From positions 5,704,001-5,768,000 of the forward strand of contig OU612075.1 in NCBI GenBank assembly GCA_914767715.1: a stretch of DNA of 64,000 nt. The letters run 5' to 3'. Positions 1 to 40,259 of the stretch are shown here, one piece after another. Below the pieces are notes generated by a model. It was not told the origin of the DNA and ran no database searches. It saw nothing but the letters and a program-made list of their open reading frames with translations. Source of the DNA: Membranipora membranacea. Its lineage: Eukaryota; Bryozoa; Gymnolaemata; Cheilostomatida; Membraniporidae. Position numbers and translations under genes: made by a program. The first letter of the stretch is position 1. Every line of letters begins with the position of its first letter.

Positions 1-648
1 CAGCCCGATTGGTCAACTAGGACAGAAGTTGCGTCCCATCAAAGTAAGGCCTCGCTGAGGTTCGCTCGCGAGCTTTGCGCAGGGGAATATGATGTCATAG
101 ACATGCATTTTGCGTATATGTCTACCATTAGAAACTTTGGACTCGTTTAATTTTATCAAAATTTGATGAAACAAGTTGAAATCCAATGTAGCTCGTGTCA
201 TCATAGAGATTAATCCAAAGCGAAAAATTGAAGGAGATAAACGTATATTTTTGTGGGGGAAAAAAGCTGGTCTCACTTTAATAGTTCCATTTACAAAAAA
301 TGTCGAATATCAGCCGAAAACCCTGATGAGACCTCACACCAAGGGTTTCTGATGTCACGAGCAAATATGAAAGGGGTGACTTCAATGCCTCATAACACAG
401 CCTGTAGTGGTCCGAGAAAGTCAATTTTGGGCTTGTTTTGAAGCTGATAAGCTGGAAAAACAGCTTTGATAACCCCAAACTTAATTTCACGGATGCTCTA
501 ATATTCAAAGTAATCAAACTGTAGACATCAATATTCTCTTCTCAGAAGAAACTGAATAAAGTCACAACTGAGTTCTGGCCCTGGAAAATATGCGTACAGA
601 ATGCTCTCCGACTTTCTTCCTCTCGAACTATTACACAAAGATAATCAC
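1..648. other. Intron or flank beside MED27, no exon seen
   Basis: This is AT-rich sequence downstream of MED27 exon 5 on its coding strand. I looked for the missing MED27 C-terminal exons and did not find them, so it is probably intron. The short open frames here have no recognisable content. Confidence 0.5.
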
Positions 649-3162
649 CTTAGATCCGCTCCATATATCGACTTGTCCGTTATCCAGACTTGTAGACTCA
701 GCGAAACCTTTAGCCAATATCCTCTCAGGTAACAACCCCCTGAATACGATGATTACCTTCATCATCTTCTCTGAAATGAAGCACAAAACGTAGCGTGAGT
801 TTTGTGTAGTACATATTCAAAATTACGTTGGCTATTCATTCTGTTTGTAGAGTCATACCATACCTCCAAATCGATTGATAGTCATGCAGGCGCATCAAAT
901 ATAGAGACTTTGGAAAACTGTTGTTTTTTGCGCAGTGGAAAGAATAGCAATCCGGCAATATTTTTTGAATTATCTAAATGTCATGTCATGTGACCTGCAG
1001 TATGTCAGCAGCACATGCAAATCATAAATATCTGGAAGAGTGGTTATTATCCAGCCAGACCTCCGCAAATTATGCCCAAACTGTGCTTCGGAGAACAACA
1101 TGAGAGATTGGAAGTTTATAAAATTAATTATATAAAAGCTAATAAAATAAAAGGTATAATGTTGAAAATTGATAATAATGGACAATGTGCCAACGCATAT
1201 ACTATGTTAGCCTGTTGGACAAGCTTTGTTTGAGGGAGGGTACAAACCTCCCCTCAAAACCTTTTCAAAATAGGAGAATACTATTTTAGAGTATATATAG
1301 GTTTTATCCATGGCACTGATACATCTTTACGCTTCATACCTATAGTCAAGACAAGAACTGTTGAGTCACCAAGCGGACGATAGTAGTCTAGCTTAGTATC
1401 CTGATGTTTGTGTTCTAGACTAGTCTTGAGCCTACTGATGATACCGTCTACGTGGGTCGGGGGCAAATTGTGTACCTCACGTTTATTGCGCTTAGCCATT
1501 AAACCTGTAAAGAAGAAGAGAATTACAAGTATTTAGCTCTGATGCTAAGCTTGCAACAGGATAGGTGGCTTAGACGCTATGCAGATAATTTTAAGTTTTC
1601 CTGTTTCTCAAAGTCGTTGATTCCAGACAAATCATAAGGTTTCCCAAAACTTTTTCTCAAAACCGGAATGTCAGTTAATCACAGTATCACGTAAGAACTC
1701 ATATGCTAACAGTTTGCAAGTTGAAGCAAAAAGTTGGTGTCGGTCTCCATTAATATAAATATTTGAGTCAAAGTCACAACAATCCCAAGTTAGCCAATGT
1801 CTCGACCCTGATATATCAGATTTCTTATAAGTTCAATTTCAGTCCTCAATTCATGTCCATACATCATGACATCCTTAGGGTTTGTTGTCAGTTACGTATC
1901 TAGGTCACTTAGCGTTACCGTTTGATGGTCCAGTTCTTTTGAGTTGGTTGTCTCTGAGAAGACTGCTGGCACACATAGAATACTCCTGCATCCTCTTGGT
2001 CCAAGTGTATGAATTTAGCACATTGTGAAACGACTGAAACAAAATCACAGCTTCATTGTTTAGAGAAGAACGTATCCGAGCAGATCGAACCAGTGAAGTA
2101 ATCAATAGTTCTGAACAATGGCCAGAGTGATGATGTATGTCACTTGATATTAATATTCTGGCTAGGAGGTGAAATTTCCAAGATTGAAATCTCGAAATGC
2201 TATCCTTTAGTTATAGGCCTAATTATCAATGACCACAACTTACAGCATTAGTTTAAACAAACCAATAATTTGCTCAGCAATGGTCAGATTTAAAATTTGA
2301 CAGGATAGCTGCCGGCATCAGTAAATACTCATAACCTTATCATTGTGTTCGCTCTAAGCCAACAAATTAACCACTGGTAACCATGACAACAAACCTCAAA
2401 GCTCTCATTTTCTGGTTCTAATGATAAGGCCATAGTGTTGATAGACTGAGGAGGATTGTTGGAAGGAAGAGAGTTTCCGGCATTCTCGAGTTCTGTGAAA
2501 GCATTGTCCATTGTAATCAGTCGCTGTTGGATACCGCGGAGGTAAGCCTGGTTCTCCTGACCTTCTGACGGCCCTGAAGGAAAGAATAGCGATAATCAAG
2601 CTCTATGACTCTATAACTACTAACATTTTATTGAGATGCCACCTTTGGCCACATAGTAACTGGAATCAGCTGCTAATTACTGAAGGGCTTCAACTTGAAT
2701 TTTTTTAACCACACAAGTTCATCTGACGCTAGTAAAGGTTTCAGGCATAGAACAAAATCAGACATGCACTATGGGTCCAGCAAGAGAGAGACCAATGAGT
2801 ACAATTTGTAGCAATTTTAAGCCTATATATACATATAGCCAAAAGCTTGTGTGAGATTCTCAAAAGTGCTCCTATGAAAAATCAGGAAATTTACAAGCTA
2901 GGCCTACAATCAAGAGGTTATTTATATTGAACTGAGAGGAAACACTCTACTAAATAGAATGAACAACATGCATGTTTTCAAATTCGTATCTATTAGAGAG
3001 AGGAAACTAATATCCACTAATATTATGAATGATGGTTGGCCTGAAATACTCACCATTGCCAAGATTGTCAAACAATGATTGCAAACTAACTCTAAGCTTC
3101 TGTAGATGTTTCAGACTATTCTTTATGTTCTCAGCAGCCTCAATATCAGCAGTAACATCCAT
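649..3162 (-). CDS. MED27: Mediator complex subunit 27, first five exons (partial)
   Basis: MED27 is a subunit of the Mediator coactivator that bridges activators and RNA polymerase II in the nucleus. Exons on the minus strand are 3162-3054, 2573-2395, 2033-1919, 1504-1340 and 770-649, all with AG/GT borders. Their lengths sum to 690 nt (230 codons) in one frame. The chosen ATG at 3162 gives MDVTADIEAAENIKNSL, in register with the N-terminal helix of animal MED27. Recognisable stretches are the helical N terminus ending LQSLFDNLGNG, the LLRDNQLKR segment, LPPTHVDGIISRL (family form LPPQYVDDVISRI), and KVIIVFRGLL followed by VDIWSGSK (family forms KVIVVMRSLF and LDIWSKSN). The remaining C-terminal third, including the Cys-rich end, should lie left of the window; I could not find it in bases 1-640. 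No frame break is seen. Confidence 0.9.
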
Positions 3163-3484
3163 ATTTTCCAATTGATAGTTTGGCAGTAAGAAAAGGTAGA
3201 AGTGAAATCTTGGAGAAGAAAAAAAGTGATTTTCACTCACTCTAAAAACAAATTAGCGTGATTGCAACACATATTGGTAACTTGGATATATATTGTCCGT
3301 CCCATCTAAAATGGATTATGGTGGTTCGGATCTCAGTCGTTCACCTTTGTTGGACCTTGAGGAAGAACGGAGAATTATGTTTTCGGGTTGTCTCCTCCTT
3401 GAGTAAGGGAGCACAACTCCTAATAACAAATTGCACCTTTCTCACTCTAATATCGGCAGGTAAGGGGGTTATTGGCAACATAGC

Positions 3485-3571
3485 CTAAGTGCTCAGACGG
3501 CTCCATTGCAAGTTAGTGGCATAACATTGTGTAATGCCACTTACGCGCAATGGCACCTTCTGAGCACTTAG
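3485..3571. repeat. Small inverted-repeat element (MITE-like), CTAAGTGCTCAGA ends
   Basis: The segment begins CTAAGTGCTCAGA and ends with its reverse complement. The arms continue inward (CATTGC/GCAATG and GTGGCAT/ATGCCAC), so nearly the whole element can fold into a hairpin. Related ends occur near 13262-13375 and in part near 58110-58160, so it is a dispersed family and not a local accident. Confidence 0.6.
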
Positions 3572-3847
3572 ACTATTGGCAACAGGGAGTCGGCAAGGTT
3601 TCTTTTAGACTTCTGTTTCAATATATTGCTCAAGTATCGAAACAATACAGGAGACGGGAGAATTCATTTCATTCTTAAAAAAACATTAATGATAAGTCTG
3701 ATCTAACATTGATTATAGGTAATGCTTTCGATTGAAGCAATATGTTAGCTCCTTGGGTGAAGGGATATATCGGATTGAATGCATCAGTACTCCAGCTCAG
3801 AGCTCTGCCCCAGTGGCGTATATTACCACTCACGGCCCACGGATTTC

Positions 3848-3942
3848 CGTGAGTGGCTGAATAGCTCAGTGTGTAGAGCGTCTGCCTTATATTCCCTGTT
3901 AATAAGATTGTTGTGGGTTCGAATCCCAGCACGGTCATTTCT
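3848..3942 (+). repeat. tRNA-like sequence (tRNA pseudogene or SINE head)
   Basis: It has an A-box-like TAGCTCAGTGTGTAGAGCG and a B-box GGTTCGAATCC spaced as in a tRNA. The flanking sequences do not pair into an acceptor stem, so this is not a working tRNA. It is a decayed tRNA copy or the head of a tRNA-derived SINE. Confidence 0.5.
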
Positions 3943-4344
3943 TTTCAAATGGGTGCTTTATAACTGGAGCATTTTTACCGTAATCTTCTACTGCTATTGA
4001 GTTGTTTTCTGAAAGTACCCAACAGCTCAGTGAGCTATTGAAATACCTCTCTGCTTGCACTATTTTGCTACCGATATGCAAAAATTTCCGTGCTTAAGCG
4101 CCCCTCCCACACCCTCCCCGCCACGCCTACGGCGTGTGGATCGAGCTGCGCCAGATTATTATGCTCATCTCTGAAAAGTCAGTGAGTGAAATTTTTTAGA
4201 ATATACGCCTCTGCTCTGCCCTTAGGTTTTTGGTGCTGTTTACATTTATTCAAGTTTATAAGAATATGATTTAAGAGCGCCAATATCAATATCAACACCA
4301 TATAAAAACAATTATCCTGCTATAATCAACTGATTACAGCACTA

Positions 4345-4432
4345 AGACTAGCTTGTCTTGGCAAGTTTTGTCAAGCCCCACCGAACAAAGCTTGTCAAGA
4401 CAGTCTACACGGGGGGGGGGGGGGGGGCCGTC
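4345..4432. repeat. Poly-G tract beside a CCGAACAAAGCTTGTCAAGACAG repeat
   Basis: A run of more than 15 G follows the motif ACCGAACAAAGCTTGTCAAGACAG. The same motif sits beside a poly-C run at 46770-46820, with a shorter related form at 11690. It looks like a small dispersed repeat with a homopolymer core. The exact G count may not be reliable. Confidence 0.5.
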
Positions 4433-5037
4433 GGACAGGGGCAAAGTCTGGGGGGCTCAGACTAAGACATTCTCTGCATTAAGTTATCTAAATATGTATC
4501 CAAGTACATTGAGGAGTCAACTCCATGCAAAAGAATCAGTAGACCTTTCAATCCAGCTAAACTTGTAATAATATCTTAGTCTATGACACTGTGTCTATGG
4601 CTCTTCAGGATCTGATGCTAAATGTTCATGTATCCTGATGCTGGTGTCTATGAAACACAGTCTATGGCACATGAAGGTGTGATGTTGATTGATTAGAGCA
4701 TCGAAGTATCAAGCATTTTCTTTTTTGCTCTCTGACGGTTTAGTTTTACAAAATCTAACCGCTGGTGGGATTCCTGCAAATGTTCATTGAAAGTATCAAT
4801 CAACGATTCATAAAACTAAGCTCTTTTGATATTCACAGTGGAAATTACATGAACTTATATACAATGATAATAGTCGCAAACGAAGACTTTGATTTAACAT
4901 CAAAGTATCCACTTCCGACGTCAAATGACAAAACTGTTGCAAGCGATTATCATTCATAGCTTTTGGACAGGTTTAACTTATGCAAAAAAAATCATAGGTC
5001 CTGTTGAGACTGTGCTTTTGCCCAATAAAATCTTTAA

Positions 5038-8000
5038 TCACATTGACAATATGGTTTTGAGCTGCAGACTCTTGACTCTACCTCGGTTTCTGTTCTGAAT
5101 CCTAATACGAGCAATGTTCAAGTTTTTCTGTCTCTGTTGCAGGCATTTCTCTTCAAGCGCTTGCAGAGTTGAGCTTATTTCTTTTTCAAGCAAATGATTG
5201 TACTCCTCCTGCAGGCAATATACTAGCAAGTTATAGATTAATGATTTGATATATTCATTTATCATTATATTAGTTTGGAAATATGATTTTCGGCGAATCA
5301 ACTCATTCCGAGCAAGAATTATCTTTACAGCCTTGTTTTATCTTATGTAGGGGGAGGGTAGTGGTATGAGACCGTACTCTCCAGAGAACAGGTGATTGAC
5401 ACCCATAGAGCTCAAAGACCCCGGGACAATTTTTATTATTACTGATAGAACACATCCTTGATGTTAGAAGGATGAGTAGTTCCATCGGTTGGTTTTGTGA
5501 TTACATGATTTGTCTGAGTCTGAGAAGTTTGTGATTTGTGAGAGTTGTAGGTTGAAGTATGATTTGAGTTGTGTGGTTTGTGGGTAGGGAGAAGCCAGTG
5601 TAAATCCCTGGAGACGAGAGCGGGAATCGAACCCGAGACCTCTCATTTGATAGCAAAGGATGTGATCATTTGCGCTATCAAAACTTCTTTACAGCATAGC
5701 AGCAGTGGTGCTGCCGCTCATCAATAAAACCAACCCAAATAGTTCAAGGTTCTCGGACTGGTTTGGGGGTTTACCCAAACTTTACTTAATCTTTACCCAA
5801 ACTTACGATACTTCCCCAAACCAAAAACTGCAAACCCAGAAAAGTGATCTGAGGCCGATAATTGTTTTTCTGTGGTGAGAACCACCATACTAACCCTGCT
5901 ATCTGCCGCCCTGTATATCTCCACCTCTCTGTTCTTAATGTGGTTTACTAGATCAGATCTACGGGAGGTGCTCAGTACTTCTGTTGACTGGAAGACTGGC
6001 TGTAATCTGAATGAAATATATAAAATAAGTTTCAGCACTAAAAAGAATGACTTGTTTAATGTACTTCTCCCATCAGGTTTGATATTGGAATGAGGTCTCC
6101 TTTCTTTGAGATATATATTGAAAGAAGACTAACTGCCTGAGAAGTTATAGGTCAATATATCAAAGGATAAGATATTGTATGAGGCAATCGATCAATAAGT
6201 AAGATGTATATTGTTATTGTAATCTGTAATTATTGGCACAAAATTAATCACCCAGAAAAATATCTAAAATAACAAGTTTCAGCACTAAAATAAATGACTC
6301 AAAACGATTCAATTTTCTTCTCCCTTCAAGTTTGATTTGGTAATCCCCGTTGGAACTGTAACCGTTGGAATGAAGTCTCCTTTCTTCGCAATATATATAG
6401 ATAGATATTTTTGTGATTTACTATGATGACGATAAACATTTTATTGCATTTTTTATGTACTGTCAGATCTAATTTATACATTTTATCGTATATTGATTGA
6501 CAAATTAAAGTATTCACACAAAAAAAAAATCTGTCTGTGAAATAAGAGGCCAATATATCATAATTATAGGATCAGATATTGTATACATCTGGTCGAAAAT
6601 TTTTGGTTTTCAAGTTTTTAAATTACTCTCAAATAAGAGAAGTTGTCATCTGTTTTTCCAGGAGGAGACAACTTTTTGTGTCATCCTTCCATTGATGCAC
6701 ATGTCTGTTCATAATGACTTAGAGTATGTATTTTCAATACTAATAACACTACCTCCAAACAAGAAGGGACAGGTTTCATGTTAAAAAGTAAACAATGCAG
6801 GTGAAGCAAGAATCAACTTAGAGTAATACGCTAGGAAGTCATTTTTTCCTATACCTTCTGATGTTTGGGGGCACTTCACTTTTGTTTCTAATTTGGGTGG
6901 TATCAGAATACTTTACCCAACTGAGCCACCTCCTAGTCCTGGGTGGTATCAGGGTACTTACCTAGCCCCTCACTCCGCTTTGACTACGGGCCTGGGTCAG
7001 TAGATGAAACTATTTAGTCTTCTCTATTTTTAATCTGATGATCACAGTTACTTACAATTTGCGAACTTCTTGGCTCCTCATATCCAATGTTACATCTGTA
7101 TGCCATTCTTTAGCTGGCACATTACCGCTTATAATAGCTGCAGTCACATCATCCAGCGATAGGTCTGCATATACATGAATAATAGTTATAAACATATAAT
7201 AGCTTGTATATGTATTTTTTCTGCCAAAAAAAATACTGTCAGTATTTTCAAAATATAAACGATATTTTGTTAAGATAATAACCTGTCGGGTGTGCTCCTA
7301 ATTTCCTTGAGAGAAAATTACAGCAAATACAGGCCTTACAGTCTAGTTTGTATTTTTTGTTGTGATGATCTGGGATCAAACAACACTTAACACTATTATT
7401 AAGTTTTTGTTCAGACAGACTTTCTAATAGTGTCAAGTAGATGTTGTGAGTCCCTACCATCATCACCAAATACACTCACTAGCCTGTAGGTTAGCCTGTT
7501 TCTGCCTTTGCTCCCATCTCTCTTTGATCTCCTGAGAGATTCTGTGAATCTTTTGTGTGATGAGCTCTTCATACTCATCCTGATACAAAAACAAACCAGG
7601 CCAGCGGGGATCAGCGTAGGCAAGCAGAGGCACTACCAGGTTACCCACGGCAACACACTCTCTTTCTAGGTTAGATTAATTTTCTAATATTCTAGGTCAG
7701 CAAAAAGAAATGACATTTGCAAAGAACGGAGCAAGGCTAGTTAGAGCCATCAAGAAATTTATCATAATACAATTTTTAGTGATGCTGAAAGGTCTGCATG
7801 CTGCTTGTGCGAGTGTTCAGTTGGCTCCTGGATATCTAAGTCTCTCGGATTCGATTTTGATGCGATCAGAAAGTATTGTCACATTTGATTTGATCCGGGT
7901 GTCAGTAAAACAATAATGTAGCATAAATACCATGCTGTGGGCAGTCTTGTACATTTCCATCTCCACTTTGTTTGCAAAATGAGTGAGACTAGCTGTACGA

Positions 8001-8424
8001 CGGTCCCTGTGGCCCTCTGTTGATAGGAGCATGGCTTGTACTCTACAACAGAAGAGGATCCTTTTAAACAATAAATATTTCAAAAAGAAAATCAAGTTTG
8101 AAATGAAGTTAAAGATATATATATACACAGTCGATAAAAGTACAAGCACTTATATCAGACCGAGCAATAAAGACAGACTGACAGACAGACACACAGACAG
8201 TGTTAACCTGACTACAGCATGAGCATTTGGTGAGGGTTTATTGGATTTACTCCAAGGTAGAAAGTCAACTTTAGCTCCGTGACAATGACAATACTGAGGT
8301 TGAGAGGTACTTACAATTGGCTAACTTGCTCACGTCTCATATCTGAAGTCATATCGGCGTGCCATTCTTTCGCTGGTTGATCGACTATCCCGATAGGTGC
8401 AGCTGTTATTGCGTTATCAGCCAT
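5038..8424 (-). CDS. Stand-alone tandem KIX-domain protein (CBP/p300-related)
   Basis: Six exons: 8424-8315, 8042-7931, 7579-7480, 7164-7056, 6006-5895 and 5208-5038. They sum to 714 nt, giving 237 residues with start and stop. Exons 1-3 encode KIX1 and exons 4-6 encode KIX2; in CBP/p300 this three-helix domain binds phosphorylated CREB, MLL, Myb and other activators. KIX hallmarks are AKEWHADMTSDMR...LVQAM, HFANKVEMEMYKTAHS and DEYEELITQKI in KIX1, and AKEWHTDVTLDMR...LLQPVF, HIKNREVEIYRAADSR and EEYNHLLEKEI in KIX2. Exon borders fall at the same places and phases in both, so a three-exon block was duplicated. Nothing else of CBP (TAZ, bromodomain, HAT) is encoded. The Tyr and Lys that contact phosphoserine in mammalian KIX (Y658, K662) align with His/Gln in KIX1 and Ser/Gln in KIX2. 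A nuclear adaptor or competitor role is inferred. Stop codon 5038-5040 overlaps an ATTAAA. Confidence 0.87.
5475..5695 (-). repeat. tRNA-derived SINE-like fragment in the KIX gene intron
   Basis: On the minus strand an A-box-like TAGCGCAAATGATCACATCC is followed by the B-box GGTTCGATTCC, as in a tRNA. There is no matching acceptor stem. It lies in the intron between exons 5 and 6 of the tandem KIX gene. Confidence 0.45.
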
Positions 8425-9400
8425 TCATATAGACTGTTGTGGAACAGTTTGACAGCTCAAATGGCTCTGAATGGCATTCAAATTTCAAAAATACAATGGA
8501 TTACTACAAAACTCCAATCAAAGCTGCTTAACTAGACTAGACTATATGCGATTTGACTGTAATAAAGTGCAGTACTCGTCTTGATGCTATGAGAAGTGTC
8601 AGTTTGCACTCTAAAACTATAGCCAAACCCTCTTGTTGTATCACTGTTTAAGTCCTTGACACATCTAACTAACGTAAGATAACATGATATAGATGTTTGA
8701 ATAGCCGATAAAAAATAAGATAAACAGTCTGACTGTTTACCTATTGAGGAGGAAGCAATTTCAATTTAAAATTGGACTGCTGTTAAATTCCTTATTCAGT
8801 TGTGACTCTCATCAAATGCATAATTACAATCATAAAAATAATATAACACGTAAATAATATATATCATATGTTTATAACTATCATTTGGCTACTTGCCATC
8901 ACTAATATTTCAGTGTTAGCACAACAAAGGGATTTCCGCCAGAACAGCTTGTATTTTGTAAGGATAAACCTGCCTTGTTAGGGAATTCCATAGCGTAATT
9001 GCATGCTTTATGACAAACCCTGAAGCCCAAACCCCTGTTTTTATTGCAATGTTCAGAGATGCTCATGGCAGTGCATTATGGAAAAGATCTAAGTCAAACA
9101 TAATTGTAATGGGCTGGGAATATTACTGCTTTAGAAGGTGAGATTTGCCTGTACCGCAGTAAATAGCAGTACACTGGAAGCTGATGAGATTCAGTCTATA
9201 GCGATGAGTAGCTCTAGTACAATGAACCCAGCTACAGATTCTCTGTGATTTGGACGATGGTAAATTTGTTCGAGCACGCTGCCATTTAATACTATAATAA
9301 ATCAGCTAGCTCTTAGGATTGTATACCACATCTGTGTATTCCGTGTTCTGACTGACACGTGGAAAGACATGCTGACAAGCTGGGTAGACAGCTAAAAACT
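8425..9400. other. Upstream of the KIX gene, no gene recognised
   Basis: This is AT-rich sequence 5' of the tandem KIX gene and should hold its promoter. I saw no exon with splice sites, no clear TATA box and no repeat that I could match elsewhere in the window. Confidence 0.4.
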
Positions 9401-9404
9401 CACT

Positions 9405-9665
9405 GCAAGGGGTGCCAGCAATGGGCCATGTAAGGCCATAACCCTAACACGTACGTTGTGTAGTGAATAGCGGGTATGCTAGCTCACATCAACACATTCT
9501 TTTTTGGGGATATGAGATGGCGCAATCCGTTAGCGCGCTTGCTATTCACTGCCAGACGACTGGTGCTGGAGGAGTTGTGGGTTTGAATCCCTTACGGGGA
9601 GCTTTCAATGTTCATTGTTCCAGCACCGAGCACCGTCGGGCCTCGGTGTATACCTCTTTTTAGGA
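9405..9665 (+). repeat. tRNA-derived SINE, copy 1
   Basis: The tRNA-like part has A-box TGGCGCAATCCGTTAGCGCG and B-box GGGTTTGAATCCC, then a shared tail containing TTGTTCCAGCACC. The preceding bases (GCAATGGGCCATG..., TAGTGAATAGCGGGTATGCTA) also match 31846-31970, so the repeat extends beyond the tRNA part. Related copies lie at 30390-30545, 31846-32160 and 54655-54815. Confidence 0.65.
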
Positions 9666-9689
9666 TTCATCTCACAATATAGACAACTA

Positions 9690-9925
9690 TGATGAAATTG
9701 CTTCTCGGACTATCGGCTAAGATCAAAGTGTCGCTGCCAATGGGCAATTAGTGCCTGTTTCAGTTTCTGGCAGCTTGCTGCACACTCACGCTTAGTAGGT
9801 CCTCTATGGCCTCACCTCTAGGATGCATTCTAGTTTTCTAGGATGTACCACACTCTCAGTACGAGGATTTTGGGCAACTTGCGTTCCTCTTTAGGGGCAG
9901 CCTCTGTTTTGTCATAAACAGGGTC
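9690..9925 (+). repeat. Dispersed repeat shared with 58676-58905 (inverted)
   Basis: The block runs from CGGCTAAGATCAAAG through TTAGTGCCTGTTTCAGTTTCTGGCAGC to GGGGCAGCCTCTGTTTTGTC. It recurs as its reverse complement near 58676-58905 with scattered differences. It has no coding content and its class is unknown. Confidence 0.6.
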
Positions 9926-11071
9926 AAAGAAATCAACAGTGTGCCCATTTCTGTCCATCTTTTGATTTAGTCCGTCCAACTATGTCCAAAAATGGACAGA
10001 CACGGGCAGGAGGACGTGAATCCCGTCCGCCCCACACCTCTGGTTGCAACTGCTTATCAAACCGCTGAGGATCAGCTGAGGATGCTGTCAGCATGTATAT
10101 TAACAATGGTGATATTGTGCAAACCTCTGATAACACGTGCCTGACTGTACTGACCATAGAAATAGAGTATCGATGTCTATGGTACTGACTTAATATCTCA
10201 ATGATTACTATAATTACTAAATGATTACTAAAAAATATTGTTAAAACTTTGAGTATTTATTAAAAATGGTATTTCATAGCTTCTCTGTCCTACAGGTACG
10301 ATGGATGATGGTGATGATGGCATTTGGATTTCTTATACTGAATGTGTTTGGCTACAAGTTAAAGCAGTCAAGCAATGATGATGATGGCCAGGCCAAAACA
10401 GTGAGTGTAACAATCATATCATCATGAATATTCTACTGTCAAATCTTTTGCAAAAGACGGCATGGAAAGATATGACAGTTAGGGACTGGCTATTTTTGCA
10501 AGCCCATTGTTTGGCAAAAGAAAGCTAATGATGCCAATCCATTAAGGAGTTCAATGAACACAACAGACAAGGAAATTTACAACCGAAAAACTTTAAATTA
10601 AATAGAAAAATAAAGAAAAATAGTCTCAAAAGATTGATTGCATCAATCAAAATATACCATTGAAATAGATATAGTCGCCTGAGTTGATACCATTACCAAC
10701 TCGATTTTGTTGTTTCCTCATATGCTATTCTACCTAAAGTCCACACTGATTTCGAGATTTCACTATTAACATGTGTATCTCTGATCGATAGAGCCTCTGT
10801 CGTAAATAATTGGCACCTACATCAGGCTAAAAGAGAGGACAACTCTCATTTTATCAAACAGACATGATCCAAAAACATATACCTAGCTCTGCATTATTAG
10901 CAATTTTTTCCTTCTCTCTTCTGAGCTTAGGCTAGCAATACACAGTTTCGATGTAACTTTGTTTGTCAAAAGTATGTACTTTATTCTCTTCTAAAACTGA
11001 AAATAGTTAAGATAAGATTTTAGGAAAGCAAAAAACAACCACTGTTCGTATCGAAGTATTCCCATAGCAAC
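9926..11071. other. Intergenic, no gene recognised
   Basis: I see no supported exon. A short open stretch around 10300-10400 (plus), with a possible acceptor at 10294 and donor at 10401, would encode a hydrophobic run (MMVMMAFGFLILNVFGYKL). It is too short and isolated to call. Confidence 0.4.
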
Positions 11072-11353
11072 GTGCAAAAACTCAGGTCTAGAAGGGTCTA
11101 GACACTAGACTCTAGAGTACGTTATCTCCCCTGTTACAGATTAACTTACTATAATATCTTTGCTAGGCTACCTTTGGCCATAACCGATTTGGCATTATTT
11201 CTGATGTATGTATAACAGCCTGGTAACTGTCCTAGGCCAACCAGGGCTAGGTTTACTGAATACTGTTAGTGGATCAATATTTTAGTGTCAATCTGTAACA
11301 AGGGAGATAATGAACTCTAGAGTCTAGACCCTTCTAGACCTTGGTTTTCGCAC
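11072..11353. repeat. MITE-like inverted-repeat element
   Basis: Two arms of about 75 bp are inverted: GTGCAAAAACTCAGGTCTAG...GTTATCTCCC...TGTTACAGATT on the left and AATCTGTAACAAGGGAGATAA...CTAGACC...TTTTCGCAC on the right. They flank about 115 bp with no coding capacity. This is the form of a non-autonomous DNA transposon. I did not find a convincing target-site duplication. Confidence 0.6.
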
Positions 11354-12190
11354 TTTGAATTCGGTTATATCTTTCAATAAGAAGAACCTGGCATTGGCTC
11401 TTCTTCTAATATATTGGCTAGTAATACTCCCAACTCAACACATTATAAAACCTATCGATCAATTATTGAGTTGTTCATTGCACAGTGTCATGCTCACCAT
11501 TAATACTGTAGTGAGGCCATCACCCATTTCTTTTCATCTTGATGACTTTAGGCACACTGATCGAGTGATATACTATTGCATGTATATCTCTGATCGATAG
11601 ACAGTGAATTAATTCACCTAGCCTCAGGGCAGTTGAAATGTAGTGTTAAGGAGACATATGGTTGATTACCCTAAAGTCTATAGCCTGTCTTGACAAGCTA
11701 CCGAACAAACCAGATAAAATCATGACAAATAGCCTCAGTGTTCTTTCATAAATAGGGAAGTGAAAACTTGGCACATGATATTCTGTGAGTCAAGCTTATG
11801 CACATATGTCTATAAGCAAAATGCTGTATGATCTATTTGACTATCGCTTTAATTTCGACGGGACAATTTTTATCGATGTCCGTAGTGATAATATCAAACA
11901 CAAGAAAACACTATAAAACATAAATGTTGTGAGTGAAAACCGAGACGCCGAGACGAGACCGAGACGTATATCGATGCCGACAAAAATAGAAAACTGCCAG
12001 TTTGTTGGGATCTGAAAATGATACATAATTGACAATTGATCAATGGTCACGATAATAGATCATAATACAGTATAGTTAGGTGTTGACCGTACATATGGCC
12101 AATTGGGTAACATGTGTCTGTCTCGGGGAGACAAGTCTCACAAGACCAAGGCATTGCCATCACTATGGGCGGCAATATCAAAAGACAAGT
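11354..12190. other. Intergenic, no gene recognised
   Basis: AT-rich sequence downstream of the TAZ2 gene. The phrase TCTCTGATCGATAGA at 11585 recurs at 10780, and a close variant occurs at 22577 and 43890, so part of this stretch is dispersed repeat. Confidence 0.4.
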
Positions 12191-12195
12191 GAGGA

Positions 12196-13484
12196 TTAAG
12201 ATTTGGGTTGTGGTTGTTTGCTGCCGCTGGTATCTCCTTCTGAAGATGGTGTTGAAGAGGTCATGGCAGCCATACGACGTCGAAGCATTGCTGCCTGGTT
12301 CTTTCGATTATTTGCCTGTTGCTGCTTTAATTTCTGTTTGATATTCAGACAGAATGGCACAGGGCACTTGCCTTCGTTACAGTTCTTAGCATGGAAGCAA
12401 CACAAAGTAATGAGATGTTTGCATATAGCACAACCTCCGAGATTTTTTTTCTACAAAACACATACAGCTTTGAATTATGAGTAAGAGCTCGATGGCATAT
12501 AAAGGCTGGTTCAAGAGCCTTCTAGCTCACCCATAAGCTAGTCTACTCAACATCGATTGATAACTTGTTGAAGGCAAGTTCTAGTTTTCACACCGGCGTT
12601 GACAAAGACTCGATTGAGCTTACCCTGCAACTTTTGGTGTGATGAACAACCTTCTTCATCTTTTGACAGCTGGGTTGTTGACAGTTGGGATCACTACACT
12701 GACAGGCATGTTTAAGTGACTGGATACATCTCTGTATGCTGATATGGCGTGACTCAGAAGCGGTCGTCGCTGCAGAGTCTTCATTGCGATTCTCGTCTGA
12801 CGTACAAGGCATATCGCTTGATTTCTCTTCTTTTTCCTCCTAAAAAAGAAGTCAATGTAGTTAAAAAGTAGCAAAGTACACTTGGAGACGATTAAGAAAG
12901 TCAAATTCTAATTACTTACTCTTTTGTCACCAATAATTGTGCTAGTTATGCTGTTGTCTTTAGCAAAGATTATAAATTGAGTATAGGGCAAATAAATACA
13001 TCGTCATTCCATACCACAATGTTGTGACAGCAAGAGGCAAAAGTGTAGCCTGGGCTGTCTCGACCGGTGGGTGGCATCTTAGACAATATTTGTGTCAATC
13101 ACCTGTTCCCTAGAGAGTATGGTCTCATTACCACTTCCACATCAGACGAGGAAATCGTTGTGTGACAGACGGAGCAAGGAAAGGACAATTTTCAAGTCTT
13201 GCACATAAAGCTTATCTGAGCCAAACCAGATAGCTGTTTGTGACACTAGTTGCTTCCTAGTCTGACTGCTCAGGCGGCATAACATTATCAAAAATGCAAA
13301 CACTCAATTTCAGTGTTGAGTCTTTGGTGATGTAATGCCATAAGACGTAGCATTGCAGATGTCTGAGCACTTAGACTAGTTGCTTCCTTGTCACCCTTAC
13401 CTTGTCAGTTTCCATATTAGTATGTGTTCCTGTATCTCTGTCTGTAGTCACATCGGCATCATTTGCGGCTTTAGGACCTGCCAT
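12196..13484 (-). CDS. Stand-alone TAZ2 zinc-finger protein (CBP/p300-related)
   Basis: Three exons: 13484-13401, 12839-12624 and 12450-12196, all joined at phase 0. They sum to 555 nt, giving 184 residues. The N terminus (MAGPKAANDADVTTD...) is polar, followed by an acidic/basic stretch (EEKEEKSSD). Residues about 60-155 form a complete TAZ2 domain: ISIQRCIQSLKHACQC, SCQKMKKVVHHTKSC, GGCAICKHLITLCCFH, and CPVPFCLNIKQKL ending MLRRRMAAM. All three His-Cys-Cys-Cys zinc sites are present. In CBP/p300, TAZ2 binds p53, E1A, STAT1 and other activators. Here it stands alone, about 35 residues before a stop, with no HAT, ZZ or NCBD. Start choice rests on the first ATG of a short exon with a strong GTAAGG donor. 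It is likely a nuclear activator-binding adaptor or competitor (inference). Its intron after the TAZ2 N-half is shared with 38690-38791. Confidence 0.85.
13262..13375. repeat. Inverted-repeat element of the CTAAGTGCTCAGA family
   Basis: It ends GTCTGAGCACTTAGAC and starts with a decayed complement (GTCTGACTGCTCAGGCGGC). It resembles 3485-3571 and lies in intron 1 of the TAZ2 gene. Confidence 0.5.
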
Positions 13485-13632
13485 ATTAGTGGATGAAGTT
13501 GAAGCCAGTTTATCCTCTCTATTTTATTTGATGAAAGCTTACGCTGATTCATAAGCTGAAACTGCAAACTAACCCACTTACCTACTTTTACATTATTTTA
13601 AGGACCAATCATGTTTCTCTGAGTTTGTTTCG

Positions 13633-15628
13633 TCATAATGAAAATGAGATCATTGGGATTCCCAGTTTCCTATTGTGCCCTTTATACTCAAGAAATCTAT
13701 CAACAAACTTGCTCAGTTCTTCTTGAGGTGTCAAAGCGCTGCTGTCCGGCTGAGGAGGCCCCTGTGGTCCGCTGCCGACAAAGCCCTGATCGCCACCGAA
13801 ATCAGGCGGGGCGTTTTGTTGTTGCGGAGGCATGTTAGTGTTCATTTGTGGGGCGTAATTTCCCTGGCTAGGCGTCCCTGGCTGCATCATCCCCACCATG
13901 TTATGGGGATAGGGTCCATACCAGGTTGCATGATAGCAGGCGATGCTGTTGTATGCGGACGAGGAGACTGGCCCGATTGCGGAGACCTGGTGTGAGAAGG
14001 TAATGGGGCGGGAGATCGTACTTGCTGCAATAGCTGATGATTGTGATGCATTTGAGCGCCTGGTGGGACTTGTCCTCTAATGCGCACCCCACCAGGCTGG
14101 TGTCCCATGGGCGGACCTCCAGGCTGTCCGGGCACCGAGCCATCAGGAGCTGGGGACCCCTGATAAGGTACCCGCGGTCCTCCGTACTGAGGAGGCATTC
14201 CGTGTTGCATCATGCTTTGCATCTGGTAGCCTTGGTTCTGCGGAGGCTGCTGGGGGTACATATTAGGCTGCATTTGATTAGGACCCATAGAGTGAGGTCC
14301 CGGAGGTCTACAGCTTATAGGTCAGCTCATACCGCCGGCACCACCGCGCTGCATAACGTTCTGATTTTTCCGCTTGATGAAAGCATCCATTAGTTGAGGG
14401 TTAGATTTCAGTAATTCCATTATCTCTTGATGTTGCTGAGCGCTATTGGGTGACTTGAGAGCTATTTCCAGCTGTCGCATGAGGTTGGCATTAGCAGATG
14501 GTGGGCCCATACCTGGCTGCCCAGGTCCACGTGGCATCATACCTCCAGCTCCCATACCTGGATGATGACCTGAAAATAATAATAGCCCAATATTATATTT
14601 GTCCATGTTATGATACATACATATATATATAGTATATATAATAATATATATGTTTTAATAAAATCATTAAATAAATAATAATAAATATATTTGTCCACAT
14701 ATAATAAATGTGGACATGGATGTGCTTGAACAGACAGACACAGCTTATTAAATTTTTTACTCTCTTGCTACCGATTGACACCTTTACACGCATATCAATA
14801 CTTCATTTTCGAACTGATTGTATTTTAATTTTTCTCCCCCATTATGTCTCACACGTTCTTATATGATGTGTATTGTCTCACAATGCATGTTTTGAATGGT
14901 TTTCAATTCAATTATATCATCATCCATTATTGAAAACGCAATAAATAACCATTTTATTACTCTTACCCATAGGTCTACTTTGGTTGTACATCGGTGGGGG
15001 TGGTTGAGGGTTGACCCACTGATCCTGTTGCGGGTGTCCGCCCATACTGTTGGGCATCATCATAGGTGGCTGCTGTCCGCTGTGACCAGGAGGCATGCCA
15101 TGGTCTCTCATGCCACCCATAGGCTGTTGACCATATCCACCAGGTTGTCCCATCTAGGAAAAAAGAAATATTAAAATTTAATTTTGTTACTTTGCTGGCT
15201 ATAATCATGTAGCTTTATTCCTTTGGAATTTTATCTCCAAATAGTGGCTACCCACTATAATTTACAACACAAGACTTATAGCGCTTCATTAATCATATCT
15301 GCACGTTGGGCATGTTAGTTTTAAACCATTAACACACAAATACTTTTATATTCATGGTATCGCACTAGCAGGAGTAAAAAGAAATATCACGTTGATAATT
15401 TCACTTTTATTTATAGTTAGAAACTGTATCAAATTGACATTCTGTGTAGAATCTCACCTTCACATTCACAAAATACTACTTCACAGCTTTACACAGATCA
15501 TGGTTGTGTTGGTCAATTCTTACCTGATTAGGAGTTGACTGCATAGACATATTCTGATTAGGAGCTTGATGCATCATACCAGCCGAGACCGCCGCAGGGT
15601 TCATACCTCTCTGCTGAGCCATAGCGGA
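13633..15628 (-). pseudogene. CBP/p300 3' exons (NCBD and Gln/Pro-rich tail), copy A, broken
   Basis: Exon pieces on the minus strand: 15628 to about 15525 (QRGMNPAAVSAGMMHQ...), 15153-14967 (Met/Gln/Pro-rich) and 14569-13633. The last carries the NCBD ([18 protein letters not shown] then [15 protein letters not shown], family form LLRTLKSPSSPQQQQQ then [15 protein letters not shown]). A Gln/Pro-rich tail follows, with an ELSKFVD end like the LEKFVE end of vertebrate CBP. NCBD binds p160/SRC coactivators in the nucleus. Defects: an in-frame TGA at 14322-14324 straight after the NCBD; a one-base frameshift in the C-rich run near 13895; and a 5' exon that stops at 15628, where a tRNA-Tyr-derived sequence begins. 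The bases after KFVD recur at 35870, so the end may also be repeat-derived. Sequencing error could explain the shift but not the tRNA junction. Confidence 0.8.
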
Positions 15629-15629
15629 T

Positions 15630-15713
15630 TTGAACCGGATTTGAACCAGTGACCTAAGGATGTCTATATTATACCATTACAGTCCTCCGCTCTACCAACT
15701 GAGCTATCGCGGG
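15630..15713 (-). pseudogene. tRNA-Tyr(GTA) pseudogene with intron, 3' end lost
   Basis: The 5' acceptor strand, D-arm, anticodon arm with GTA, intron and T-arm are present. After CCGGTTC the 3' acceptor strand is replaced by a repeat of ATTTGAACCGG and then CBP exon sequence. It is the left end of a tRNA-bounded unit (15630-16191). Confidence 0.75.
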
Positions 15714-16126
15714 TCAACTGGCGATTCTTGATCATTCCTTATATTCTACAAGTCCTCTTTCACCAGTTTCCACGACAATCTTGGTACTCATTACCTCCAC
15801 AGGAAGTCAATTTAGCCGCCCCCAGCACCCCAACCAGCACCCCCCCCCCCTGTCACAATAACGCCGATTCATGGGTAAAGTGTTTTATCGGTTGTATGTG
15901 TTCGAGTTTTTTGAATGATTAACAACTTCAATGAATTGAGATATCAAGCATTGGCAATGGATTAATGATCCATCCAAAACACAATTTTCACAGTTTGACA
16001 TTTTAAGGAGTTCTGTTGGCTTAGCACCATAAATCATTCCTTTGCTCTTTTGATTTAATCCGTAAATCACAGTGTTATTCTTCTTGGGTGTCAACTGACT
16101 TCCAACAGAGATAAGTAGGACCAAAG

Positions 16127-16191
16127 GCGGAGGACTCTCATGGTATATAATAGACATCCTTAGGTCACTGGTTCAAATCCGGTTCGCGGGA
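16127..16191 (+). pseudogene. tRNA-Tyr pseudogene, 5' half missing
   Basis: It begins within the D-arm (GCGGAGGACT) and runs to the 3' acceptor and discriminator base (TCGCGGGA). The anticodon region reads CTCTCA in place of CTGTAA, so GTA is lost. No acceptor 5' strand is present. Confidence 0.75.
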
Positions 16192-16780
16192 TCACACTTT
16201 TGGGCCGCCAGGATACAATTTATTTCTATTAATTACCAAACTTAAATCTATAAAAATATATTTCTCATCGGAATATCCGCTTTGGATGAACAGGTACAAG
16301 TATGGTTCTGGCAGGATACGATTTATATGTAGTACCAGCATTGACATGAATATGATATGATATGAAAATATATCAGTGAGTACCAGACTTCGATCAGTAA
16401 ATATATAATTTTCTTTGGAACTTCAGCATCGGATTGAAATGGACATGTGTGGTTCATTTTATGTACCAGAGAATTTCTATGTTTTTCATTTTAAAGTTGC
16501 TTGATGTCAATACTTCACATCCTCATGACATCATAATAAGCTGATATCAAATAGAGTCTCATTTAAGTAATATGTGAGTTGCCTTTCCAACATCAATAAA
16601 ATGATAATTTTCTACTACATAAATATCTGCGAAAGATAATCAAACAACAGGTGAGATCCAAAGTTTAACACATAGCCGTTTATCTGGAATATCGAGATTG
16701 ATCCTCACAAACAATTACTATGGCTGAGTTAAGTCAATTATTTAGCACACTTTCAGAGTGTTCGGTTTATAAAATTGTGA
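16192..16780. other. Spacer between tRNA-bounded units, no gene
   Basis: AT-rich sequence with partly repeated phrases (TATATTTCTCATCGGAATATCCGC, GGCAGGATACGATTTAT). I found neither polymerase exons nor the rest of the CBP exon that is cut at 15628. Confidence 0.45.
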
Positions 16781-16854
16781 TCCCGCGAACCGGATTTGAA
16801 CCAGTGACCTAAGGATGTCTATATTATACGATTACAGTCCGCGCTCTACCAACT
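16781..16854 (-). pseudogene. tRNA-Tyr pseudogene, 5' end missing
   Basis: It retains the 3' acceptor strand, T-arm, intron and GTA anticodon, but ends in the D-arm. The 5' acceptor strand is absent and three bases are lost in the anticodon stem region. It is the left end of the second tRNA-bounded unit. Confidence 0.75.
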
Positions 16855-17447
16855 GGCAAATCTTGATCATTCCTTAAAATCAACAAGTCCTCTTTCACCA
16901 GTTTCCACGACAACCTTGGTACTAATTGCAGATTCATGGGTAAAGTGTTTTATCGGCTGTTTGTGTGCATGTTTTCTGAATGATCTCATTGATGAATTCT
17001 TATGATTTTTAGTGAAGTTGAGATAAGGTTGCTATGGGCTTTCTATAGCAATGTTATATCAAGTTTTGAGCGACAACCTATCTACACCCAATAGGGAAAA
17101 GTTGTTTTTGTGTACAGAATAAAAATTTGAAATTGGACAGAGTGATTGATACACCATGACAAACTGCCTTTCATGATGTACAACTTCAATGAATTGAGAT
17201 ATCAAGGATTGGCAATGGATTAATGATCCATCCAAGACACAATTTTCACAGTTTGACATTTTAAGGAGTTCTGTTGGCTTAACACACTAAATCATGCCTT
17301 TGCTCTTTTGATTTGATCCATAAATCGCAGTGTTACTCTTCCGGGTTTAAATTTACTTCCTACAGAGATAAGTAGGACCAAAGTTGTCATGGTTACTAAT
17401 GGAACTGACTTTTTAAATTTTGGAAACTTTCTAGTAGTGTCAGCTGA

Positions 17448-17535
17448 CCCGCGATAGCTCAGTTGGTAGAGCGGAGGACTGTAATGGTATAATAAAGACA
17501 TCCTTAGGTCACTGGTTCAAATCCGGTTCGCGGGA
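17448..17535 (+). tRNA. tRNA-Tyr (anticodon GTA) with 15-nt intron
   Basis: The acceptor stem pairs perfectly (CCCGCGA with TCGCGGG) and A is the discriminator. The anticodon stem GAGGA/TCCTT encloses loop CTGTAAA with GTA, and the T-arm ACTGG/CCGGT is closed. A 15-nt intron (TGGTATAATAAAGAC) lies one base 3' of the anticodon, the canonical position; removing it leaves 73 nt. Internal A and B boxes are intact and a TTTT Pol III terminator follows. It should be functional. Confidence 0.92.
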
Positions 17536-17819
17536 TCACACTTTTATTAATTGAGCCCTCTAAAGCTGTCCTAATTTGACTTTACCTGATCTTGAATTAT
17601 TTTATTATTTATGACGATCGGTCTTGACATTTCAAATACACAGCTATTGAGAAACCTATTTCTTTCATGTACCACATGGACATCGATTATCTTTAATTGG
17701 TAGTTGCTAATTAATAATAAATGTATAATTGTTACAGTTATTTATCAGGAGTTGTCGTGTCATTGATGTTGGGAGGGCAACTCCTAGTATTTACTTTACT
17801 TATCCTCCATTCACCCTCC

Positions 17820-18545: not shown

Positions 18546-19095
18546 GAAGAATGGGATTAAAACTCAACATATTGTTTGAGAATTATTGAAATATGAAGCG
18601 CTGGATAAGAGACTACCTGTGCAACTTTTAAAAAAATTCTAATATGATATTGAAAGTAAGAAATATGTCCTCTTGTTATCTAGCGATGCAGTTTACTCAG
18701 TAACTTTGGCATCCAGCCATAATTTTCAGCCGTTTTCAGGCATAAATCCCTGTTCTCGGCTATGGTGACCTTATGAAAAGCAATTGTTGAATCGGTCATA
18801 GAAAACCATTATGGGACAACATTTCCTTAAAGTTGGGAATGTGATGTGGCGTCATCAAAAACACCAAGCATTAAAAAATTAAATCAACTTTGCATCACTT
18901 GCTGAGAAGTCTGAAACCAATCGAATTGTTTTTGCTGTAGATGCTGAATCTCCTTATTCATAGAGAGGTAAAAAGATCTAATCCACTGCCACTGAAACTT
19001 TAAGCCTTATTTAACAACATGATTGGCTGAGGATTACTATATATAGCAATGATCAAGTTGCAGTGTTGTACATTGATTTGTTTTTTCTTCCAAAG

Positions 19096-37240: not shown

Positions 37241-37321
37241 GCATGTTTTGAACGTTTTCAATACAATAATATCATCATCCATTATTGAAAACGCAATAAA
37301 TAACCATTTTATTACTCTTAC

Positions 37322-38108
37322 CCATAGGTCTACTTTTGTTGTACATCGGTGGGGTTGGTTGAGGGCTGACCCACTGATCCTGTTGCGGGTGTCCGCCCAT
37401 ACTGTTGGGCATCATCATAGGTGGCTGCTGCCCGCCGTGACCAGGAGGCATACCCTGGTCTCTCATGCCACCCATGTAGCTTCATTCCTTTGGAATTTTA
37501 CCCCCAAATAGTGGCTACCCACTATAATTTACAACACAAGACTTATAGCGCTTCATTAACCATATCTGCGCGTTGGGCATGTTAGGTTCTAACCATTAAC
37601 ACACAAATATTTTATATTCATGGTATCGCACTAGCAGGAGTAAAAAGAAATATCACGTTGATAATTTCACTAATATTTATAGTTAGAAACTGTATCAAAT
37701 TGACATTCTGTGTGAATCTCACCTTCACATTCACACAATACTACTTTACAGCTTTACACAGATCATGGTTGTGTTGGTCAATTCTTACCTGATTAGGAGT
37801 TGACTGCATAGACATATTCTGATTAGGACCTTGATGCATCATACCAGCCGAGACTGCCGCAGGGTTCATACCTCTCTGCTGAGCCATAGCTGCGGGCTTG
37901 CCTCCCATACCACCAGGTCCTACAGGCTGTCCGGGGTGCTCCCCGGGTATCGGCTTGCCTCCGACTGAAGGGGGTCCCTGAGTAGCTTTGAGAGCCTGGT
38001 TGAGTGCGTGGTGTGCGGCGTGGACGGCTGCTGGTGGAGCGGCTGGCTGCATGGGTTTACCTCCACCGTGATTACTGCTGGCGGGGTACAGACTAGACAC
38101 TGGCTGGC
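37322..38108 (-). pseudogene. CBP/p300 3' exons, copy B, broken
   Basis: Exon 38108-37789 encodes a Pro/Gly/Gln-rich linker with PPAAVHAAHHALNQALKATQ (CBP/p300 region before the NCBD). Exon remnant 37454-37322 matches copy A 15120-14967. Relative to copy A, 89 bp are missing at the 5' side of the second exon, including the splice acceptor and first codons, with CAT at the join. The NCBD exon is absent. The phase-1 start of the linker exon cannot join the phase-0 donor at 38792. It is therefore not translatable as CBP. Confidence 0.75.
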
Positions 38109-38791
38109 CTGAAACATCCAGTACACAACACATTATAATCATGTGTGGAAATACCATGCATCCTTTTTTTTGCAACACCTGTCTGTGTTAGTGATAGAAA
38201 TACATATATAAATCATTACAAGGAAATGAATCACCTAAAAATAACACACCTCAAATACAACATCCCCATCACATATTTTCATTATTTTCATAACAAACAT
38301 GTTTACTAGAGCAGCAAAAATGTATCACTCAGTTGATGTTCTGAACCAATTTTTTTCATTGTTTTACAATTATTTAGGGAGAGATGGAACAGGAAAACAT
38401 CACTGACTGCTTATGGTGTTAGCAAGGACTAAAATATCTTTTTGACATTTGTCTGGTTGACATTTGTGGCCACAAAACTCTTGTGCCAAGGTACCATGTA
38501 CAGATGAACTACATCCTGGTTGGAAAAAATAGTCGTTCAGTAAAGCGCCAAAGAAATGAAATGAAATTTTAATTAGTCTCATAATCGCTCCCTGTCAATT
38601 ATGCGCAAAAGTTATTCTTTCCATATTCAATTTCTTCCCAGTTTCATGTTGCTAGTATAGAGCTGGAGTTAGCTAGGGGAAAAGAGCCTTCTAGCTCACC
38701 CATAAGCTAGTCTACTCAACATCAATTGGTAACTTGTTGAAGGCAAGTTCTAGTTTTCACACCGTGTTGACAAGGACTCGATTGAGCTTAC

Positions 38792-39529
38792 CCTGCAACT
38801 ATTCGTGTGATGAACAACCTTCTTCATCTTTTGACAGCTGGATTGTCGACAGTTGGCATCGCGACACTGACAGGCATGTACAAGTGACTGTATACATCTC
38901 TGTATGCTGATTTTGCGAGATTCGGCCGGTGAGCACATTGCCGCTGAATCCTGATTGCCGTCCCCGTCCAACAAGCCGAGCTTCTCCATCGGATGCTGAT
39001 GCTTCTCCTTTTTGTAACACTGAACACAAAGGTCAAAGTCCTGAAAAACAAGACCAAAAACATTGTTGAAAAATATGCAAGGAAATGGTGGATCAAGTTT
39101 GAAAGAAGTAGTGATTCAATTATTCCATCATGTTGTTCCATTGGCAAAATTATTACCATCTAACTTTCTATATTTAGGAATACAACTGCGTACAATGGGG
39201 CATACAGTTATGAATGAGCATATAGTATGCTCAAAGCTAACTAGGTATAAAATCAAGACATAGGTCATAGATAGTCCATGCCTTTCAAATTATTCAACAA
39301 TAGAAATCTGTTGTACTAGACACTGATTGCTTGGTAGTATGCTAGTCAAATTAAAAAAATGTTTTATCACCTGACAGTCACAAACACAACCCTCAAGATC
39401 TAGATACCACTCTGCCTCTACCGGCACTGGTATAGAATCAGGCAGAGTCTGAGCCGACATCATGATCGGCGCAATGCTAGCAGAAGGTCTCGGTATAGGA
39501 TACAGCACCGACCAAATACCAGAATCCAT
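38792..39529 (-). pseudogene. CBP/p300 ZZ-TAZ2 fragment with its own ATG
   Basis: Exons 39529-39371 and 39040-38792 join at phase 0. The second encodes the end of a ZZ zinc finger (DFDLCVQCYKKEKHQHPMEK) and the N-terminal half of TAZ2 (ISIQRCIQSLVHACQC, KMKKVVHHTNSC). The first ends CVCDCQ, which supplies Cys residues for the ZZ finger, and opens with an ATG in AACAACAAATATGG. The exon for the second half of TAZ2 is missing: similarity to the intact TAZ2 gene stops at about 38685, so two zinc sites are incomplete. The first 40 residues (MDSGIWSVLYPIPRPSAS...) are not recognised. It could be a broken stand-alone ZZ-TAZ2 gene or a leftover of full CBP. Confidence 0.6.
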
Positions 39530-40250: not shown

Positions 40251-40259
40251 TTTTTCATC

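Follow-up and report, generated by a model that had tools for sequence, protein, structure and literature searches.

Background

The closest described counterparts of the locus reported here are cbp-2 and cbp-3 of C. elegans, partial duplicates of the CBP gene that lie near their parent and lack the histone acetyltransferase (HAT) domain; they are pseudogenes to some authors and functional genes to others (PMC10320766, PMC10743222). As far as the relevant sections of these papers go, cbp-2 (first zinc finger plus KIX) and cbp-3 (zinc finger only) are HAT-less, are situated together with cbp-1 within 160 kb and are expressed, and RNA interference (RNAi) against each of them alters promoter activity (PMC10320766). 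The second paper, in the sections concerned, treats cbp-3 as a likely pseudogene with KIX only, whose RNAi lowers a stress reporter (PMC10743222), so that the two accounts disagree on the domains of cbp-3. In these sections neither gene is given as carrying two KIX domains. Tandem KIX proteins are known from plants, with up to six KIX domains in one protein of Brassica oleracea, according to the parts consulted of PMC3936767, PMC5668377 and PMC10565003.

Here we describe a gene of the bryozoan Membranipora membranacea, hereafter the KIX-KIX gene, whose predicted product contains two tandem KIX domains. It lies in a stretch of 64,000 nucleotides (the window), which corresponds to positions 5704001-5768000 of contig OU612075.1 (C11 below) in a genome assembly of 339 Mb and 18 contigs (GCA_914767715.1). 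By its sequence it arose from a CBP gene by partial duplication, has its KIX unit twice and would encode a small HAT-less protein; the duplication occurred near the parent gene, as in cbp-2 and cbp-3. To the fuller reading, in which the product of this partial CBP duplication serves as a non-catalytic KIX adaptor or competitor, we give roughly even chances.

The initial annotation of this DNA stated that no animal protein of this form had been described. No animal KIX-KIX protein was found described in the literature, KIXBASE, which covers animals and mentions standalone KIX proteins, being outside that search; the sections consulted of PMC12153100 and PMC3305381 contain nothing on proteins of this kind. 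As worded, the statement is not supported in view of the HAT-less partial CBP paralogues of C. elegans, at least one of them with KIX, and of the plant tandem KIX proteins, as far as the sources above report them. Repeated KIX domains are common to the plant proteins and the bryozoan one; they occur in different kingdoms and presumably arose independently, since the bryozoan gene goes back to the CBP of its own genome. In a protein database the complete KIX-KIX product yielded 462 candidates, none at E <= 1e-3, and domain 1 a single candidate, none at E <= 10, with a method that needs shared five-residue words and similar length and thus does not imply absence. Phage and viral collections contained no relative. 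As far as found, the layout appears to be new for animals: an offshoot of CBP with a plausible function, of which there are two intact copies, both neighboured by a gene for nothing but a TAZ2 domain (the TAZ2-only gene).

Structure of the KIX-KIX gene and its product

Six exons on the minus strand, between window positions 8424 and 5038, splice in frame into 237 residues:

8424..8315, minus strand: exon 1, with the ATG, the N-terminus and the first part of KIX domain 1; donor GTAAGT
8042..7931, minus strand: exon 2, middle of KIX domain 1; 112 nt
7579..7480, minus strand: exon 3, final helix of KIX domain 1, followed by the linker
7164..7056, minus strand: exon 4, N-terminal part of KIX domain 2
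6006..5895, minus strand: exon 5, central part of KIX domain 2; matches exon 2 in length (112 nt) and phase
5208..5038, minus strand: exon 6, final helix of KIX domain 2, then the basic tail and the stop (included)

Re-splicing reproduced the six exons, their coordinates and phases and the length of the product exactly as first annotated. All five introns (272, 351, 315, 1049 and 686 nt) are of the GT-AG type, and the junction phases (2,0 / 1 / 2,0) confirm that the borders within the two domains agree. Exons 1 and 4 share 73% nucleotide identity across 83 nt, and this similarity extends past the donor site. An in-frame TGA immediately precedes the ATG, and exon 1, read from the upstream side, therefore cannot be an ordinary internal coding exon. 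The basic C-terminal tail (pI ~12) could help nuclear entry. A short upstream frame, ATG AAT GGC TGA (window 8428-8417, minus strand), overlaps the start codon and might dampen translation.

The whole product matches the Pfam KIX profile (PF02172) with E = 1.5e-20, and both proposed domains pass the curated cut-off of 27 bits when scored alone (domain 1, 47.0 bits; domain 2, 34.8 bits). Searches of the PDB with the whole product and with domain 2 alone gave six sequences at E <= 1e-3, all of them KIX domains of CBP or p300. An origin from MED15 or RECQL5 is not favoured, given the lower scores of the other KIX models (KIX_2 and Med15_N) and the fact that every PDB match at this threshold is to CBP or p300. 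HAT (PF08214), bromodomain, TAZ and NCBD are not among the ten Pfam families reported for the product at E <= 10, in line with the earlier proposal that it has no catalytic or zinc domain.

Arg600 and Tyr640, the fold-locking pair, are kept in all four domain copies (two domains in each of two gene copies, the second of which is described below). PMC3936767, in the section concerned, gives positions 603, 607, 611, 628, 653, 657 and 660 as the conserved core network of KIX; four of these seven are identical in each domain, and the remaining replacements are conservative except those at 603 (Q/E) and, in domain 2, at 660 (T).

Origin from CBP

On the same contig, about 390 kb from the KIX-KIX gene of the window, lies a CBP gene (C11:6110445-6091984, here C11 CBP) with TAZ1, KIX, bromodomain, HAT, ZZ/TAZ2 and NCBD exons in this order. 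Read exon by exon in separate stretches, it is apparently complete; the frame of its last exon runs uninterrupted for 305 codons up to the stop, and a RING/PHD query found no match in these stretches. Its KIX exons have splice positions and phases identical to those of both KIX-KIX domains. KIX sequence, splice positions, phases and strand are thus shared between C11 CBP and the KIX-KIX gene; unlike CBP/p300, the latter has no TAZ1, bromodomain, HAT, ZZ, TAZ2 or NCBD, contains KIX twice, and has lost KID-side residues.

Phylogenetic analysis of KIX (7 sequences, 87 columns) joins domains 1 and 2 (support 77) and places them nearest to the KIX of C11 CBP (75), both supports being moderate. Identity to the latter is 47-51% for domain 1, 43.5% for domain 2 and 70% for the KIX of human CBP. 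Within the seven sequences of the tree, the string DQPAKEWH occurs only in C11 CBP and in domain 1 of both gene copies, and KVEMEMYKTA only in C11 CBP and in domain 1 of the window copy, the second copy having KVEIEMYKTA.

A second, divergent CBP gene is located on another contig (C5:15396501-15370371), with TAZ1, KIX, bromodomain, HAT and TAZ2 exons. Whole-genome searches returned three KIX exon matches among 10 candidates (two in C11 CBP, one in the C5 gene) and three HAT matches among six (one in C11 CBP, two in the C5 gene). The KIX exons of the window are absent from the KIX-family matches, which indicates that this search misses diverged copies.

Downstream of C11 CBP there follow a TAZ2-only gene (6088438-6087004) and then a second KIX-KIX gene (6083231-6079830), so that C11 CBP is the upstream neighbour of both. 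The GT-AG sites of this second copy lie at the same places, it has no internal stop, and 689 of 714 coding bases are identical to those of the window copy, with no gap across the six exons. That C11 CBP has its own KIX, bromodomain and HAT exons, and that a second intact copy exists, supports the view of KIX-KIX as a free-standing frame. A product of chance or of wrong splicing is rejected: both domains pass the Pfam profile, the splice positions match those of C11 CBP, and there is the second intact copy. The end of C11 CBP, the TAZ2-only gene and the KIX-KIX gene lie in tandem on one strand within ~13 kb, an arrangement that would also be expected if CBP or the TAZ2-only gene used these as alternative 3' exons and there were no separate KIX-KIX gene at all. 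We consider this highly improbable, as the KIX-KIX and TAZ2-only genes each begin with an ATG and end with a stop of their own, the ATG of KIX-KIX follows a TGA in the same frame, and C11 CBP terminates in its own stop before both of them.

Window positions 499-15625 and 36281-40117 match C11:6075430-6095967 piecewise, at 88-98%. Judged from these alignments, the window is a rearranged duplicate of this segment, split by an inserted, itself duplicated array of ~20 kb that holds RING-domain frames. Two broken pieces of CBP flank this array:

13636..15625, minus strand: broken CBP C-terminal piece, with linker exons, NCBD (14570-14331) and tail
37278..39049, minus strand: second broken CBP piece, with the end of ZZ and the first half of TAZ2 (39049-38792), followed by linker exons

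The tail of the first piece is interrupted by a TGA in its frame (14324-14322) and changes frame near 13.9 kb, the counterpart in C11 CBP being open; at the second piece, the second half of TAZ2 was not found. Queries with KIX-KIX, KIX, bromodomain, TAZ1 and HAT revealed no other KIX or CBP N-terminal exons within the window.

Heterozygosity of 2-7% is within the range of some marine invertebrates. The two copies of the segment differ by ~2-7% (exons 3.5%, introns 4.4%, spacer 2.4%, introns of the TAZ2-only gene 7.4%), and the window copy might accordingly be a false duplication, the assembler having put the other, divergent haplotype of a single locus at a wrong place on the chromosome. This seems unlikely to us: the two places are ~370 kb apart on one contig and mutually rearranged, and the window copy has broken CBP parts and the inserted array of ~20 kb. 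Even if it were true, the KIX-KIX gene beside C11 CBP would remain.

The KIX tree and the shared splice structure suggest the simplest history of a partial CBP duplicate. A CBP segment with the three KIX exons would have been copied downstream of CBP and would have acquired its own start codon; doubling of the three-exon unit would then have generated a small HAT-less protein with two KIX domains. Later, the 3' end of CBP, the TAZ2-only gene, the KIX-KIX gene and a MED27-like gene would have been copied ~370 kb away into what is now the window. The order of these events is the one we infer.

Binding surfaces and possible function

Residues at the two faces of KIX were compared with human CBP. 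The KID-side set comprised nine positions (591, 599, 603, 606, 649, 650, 654, 658, 662), among which 599, 603, 606 and 654 are those we take to belong to this side; the MLL-side set comprised twelve (611, 612, 624, 625, 628, 631, 632, 635, 639, 656, 660, 664), all of which, apart from 631, are presumed to line the MLL groove. The section of PMC3936767 concerned assigns 591, 649, 650, 658 and 662 to the KID side, and 631 to the side bound by Jun and MLL. At the KID side, C11 CBP matches the human protein at all nine positions and the C5 CBP at seven; domain 1 matches at two (window copy) or three (second copy), and domain 2 at three in both copies. At the MLL side, both bryozoan CBPs match at all twelve positions, domain 1 at seven (window) or nine (second copy), and domain 2 at four or five.

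Leu603, Tyr650, Ala654, Tyr658 and Lys662 are all kept in C11 CBP and all replaced in the four KIX-KIX domain copies. The KID/Myb site formed by Tyr658 and Lys662 is represented by H/Q in domain 1 and S/Q in domain 2 of both gene copies. These two residues hold the phosphoserine of CREB, and their absence is a likely reason why the KIX of MED15 binds neither CREB nor Myb (PMC3936767, in the section concerned). Both domains therefore appear to have lost the phospho-CREB pocket, with domain 1 keeping most of what seems to be an MLL-type groove.

The KIX-KIX protein was initially suggested to tether, or compete for, KIX-binding activators. With two KIX domains of CBP type and no HAT, it might be thought to act as a general KIX decoy, competing with CBP for phospho-CREB (through its KID) and Myb; given the replacement in every domain copy of five KID-side residues that C11 CBP retains, such a role is most improbable. 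The part of the suggestion that survives is competition through the MLL-type groove of domain 1, which is possible. The adaptor or competitor that we propose would thus bind activators of the MLL/Jun type through domain 1, and neither domain is expected to bind phospho-CREB or Myb. Without any acetylation, it would draw some activators off CBP or join two of them together. That the gene is expressed and that its product folds, binds and competes are all predictions of this reading.

To distinguish the KID/Myb face of KIX from its MLL face, engineered mutants are usually employed. A natural KIX-KIX protein that is without one face in both domains, and whose parent CBP keeps that face, would constitute a ready-made test of each.

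Constraint or decay

Older constraint on the KIX-KIX gene is visible in two comparisons. Domains 1 and 2 have the same residue at 39 of 99 aligned codons; they differ in 45% of first, 26% of second and 58% of third codon positions, the second positions varying least. Domain 1 compared with the KIX of CBP gives nonsynonymous (dN) and synonymous (dS) divergences of 0.33 and 0.91 for the second copy and 0.35 and 0.87 for the window copy; in domain 2 the synonymous sites are saturated by NG86.

Several observations weigh against a functional adaptor. Between the two KIX-KIX copies, dN is 0.034 and dS 0.042 (NG86), with dN/dS of 0.8 by NG86 and YN00 and of 1.0 by maximum likelihood. The exons are not better conserved than the introns (25/711 and 118/2660 differences, respectively; P = 0.35), and the spacer towards the TAZ2-only gene is more conserved than the KIX-KIX exons (97.6% identity over 3756 sites). 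The scarcity of exon indels in relation to 12 intron events is not significant (P = 0.32); this test counted one exon event, the stretch compared having omitted the stop codon, and the six exons themselves are gap-free. Current purifying selection, tested between the two copies by dN/dS and by exons versus introns, was thus not found, and with near-neutral dN/dS, exons that equal introns and a more conserved spacer, at least one copy seems to be free of constraint at present. At the core position 603 (PMC3936767, in the section concerned), each of the four domain copies has Gln or Glu in place of Leu, a change that could make the fold weaker. Window domain 1 is also without Phe612 and Met625, and domain 2 has Arg635, Ile632 and Thr660, which leaves only domain 1 with a convincing MLL-type groove; the assumed make-up of the MLL-side set is a further caveat. 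Finally, domains 1 and 2 are about equally distant from each other and from CBP, so dating is loose.

These data also bear on the possibility that KIX-KIX, as a partial duplicate of CBP, is in decay: it might still be transcribed but would no longer yield a useful protein, and its frame would be open because the decay is recent. The near-neutral dN/dS between the copies, exons no better kept than introns, and the already broken CBP pieces beside the window copy would all fit, and in simulations 0.05 neutral substitutions per site leave 22% of copies stop-free. There is a parallel in cbp-3, termed 'probably a pseudogene' in a paper whose own cbp-3 RNAi nevertheless has an effect (PMC10743222, in the section concerned). 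We regard decay as somewhat unlikely all the same. Domains 1 and 2 have come to differ at over half of their residues, yet neither a stop nor a frameshift has arisen and second codon positions have changed least, whereas at least 0.2 neutral substitutions per site leave a stop-free frame in <0.5% of simulations; the KIX-KIX copy beside C11 CBP is likewise intact. The locus provides a second case, beside cbp-2 and cbp-3, in which function can be tested against decay.

The TAZ2-only gene

Between the broken CBP pieces and the KIX-KIX gene, the window contains the TAZ2-only gene (13484-12196, minus strand), whose three exons encode 184 residues with one full TAZ2 domain:

13401..13484, minus strand: exon A, first ATG; 74/84 nt identical to the second copy
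12624..12839, minus strand: exon B, first half of TAZ2; 216/216 nt identical to the copy at C11:6.087 Mb
12196..12450, minus strand: exon C, second half of TAZ2 and stop; 252/255 nt identical to the second copy

The spliced product matches PF02135 with 47.9 bits and the TAZ2 of p300 with E = 1.8e-47. Only 3 of 471 sites differ between the two copies in exons B and C, versus 63 of 803 elsewhere in the gene, including 10 of 84 in exon A (P = 5e-10). The dN/dS is 0.18-0.32 in comparison with CBP and 0.55 between the copies. Since conservation is much stronger in the domain exons than in its other parts, the TAZ2-only gene is probably a working gene, and perhaps a more telling one than KIX-KIX. 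Gene conversion between the copies could also hold exons B and C alike.

A protein database search with the TAZ2-only product gave 93 of 133 candidates at E <= 1e-3, including animal proteins, fragments and constructs. Among them are short animal 'CBP-like' proteins with reduced sets of CBP domains: bromodomain plus TAZ2 in Aphidius, NCBD plus TAZ2 and TAZ2 only in Brachyhypopomus, and TAZ2 only in Acropora and Littorina. Having been found with a TAZ2 query, all of them bear TAZ2 and resemble the TAZ2-only gene, and some may be fragments of gene models. The short Brachyhypopomus proteins (NCBD before TAZ2; TAZ2 alone), encoded on contigs of equal length, are possibly partial CBP paralogues with shuffled domains in a fish.

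Taking the two genes together, it is conceivable, though we think it rather unlikely, that the CBP locus has split off enzyme-free, single-purpose adaptors that jointly compete with CBP for chosen subsets of activators. One would be the TAZ2-only protein, whose domain exons look constrained, and the other KIX-KIX, in which the phospho-CREB/Myb surface seems erased from both domains and the MLL-type surface kept in domain 1, which would amount to a naturally occurring split between the two binding sites of KIX. The locus illustrates how genes for enzyme-free adaptors can bud from that of an essential co-activator, a matter also discussed for cbp-2 and cbp-3.

Other elements in the window

Downstream of the KIX-KIX gene are exons of a MED27-like Mediator subunit (window 3162 to ~649, minus strand), which are also duplicated beside C11 CBP. 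Their product, with exons joined by eye, matches MED27 with E = 1.4e-28; a Pfam scan gave no family at E <= 0.01. A segmental duplication (window ~14884-31320 and 37240-56461) includes RING-domain frames and tRNA-Leu(TAA) genes, with related sequence at C11:6.04-6.06 Mb. Frames resembling those of a non-LTR retrotransposon occur on the plus strand at window 50930-53999, with an endonuclease (PF03372, at its cut-off) and, downstream of it, a putative reverse transcriptase frame.

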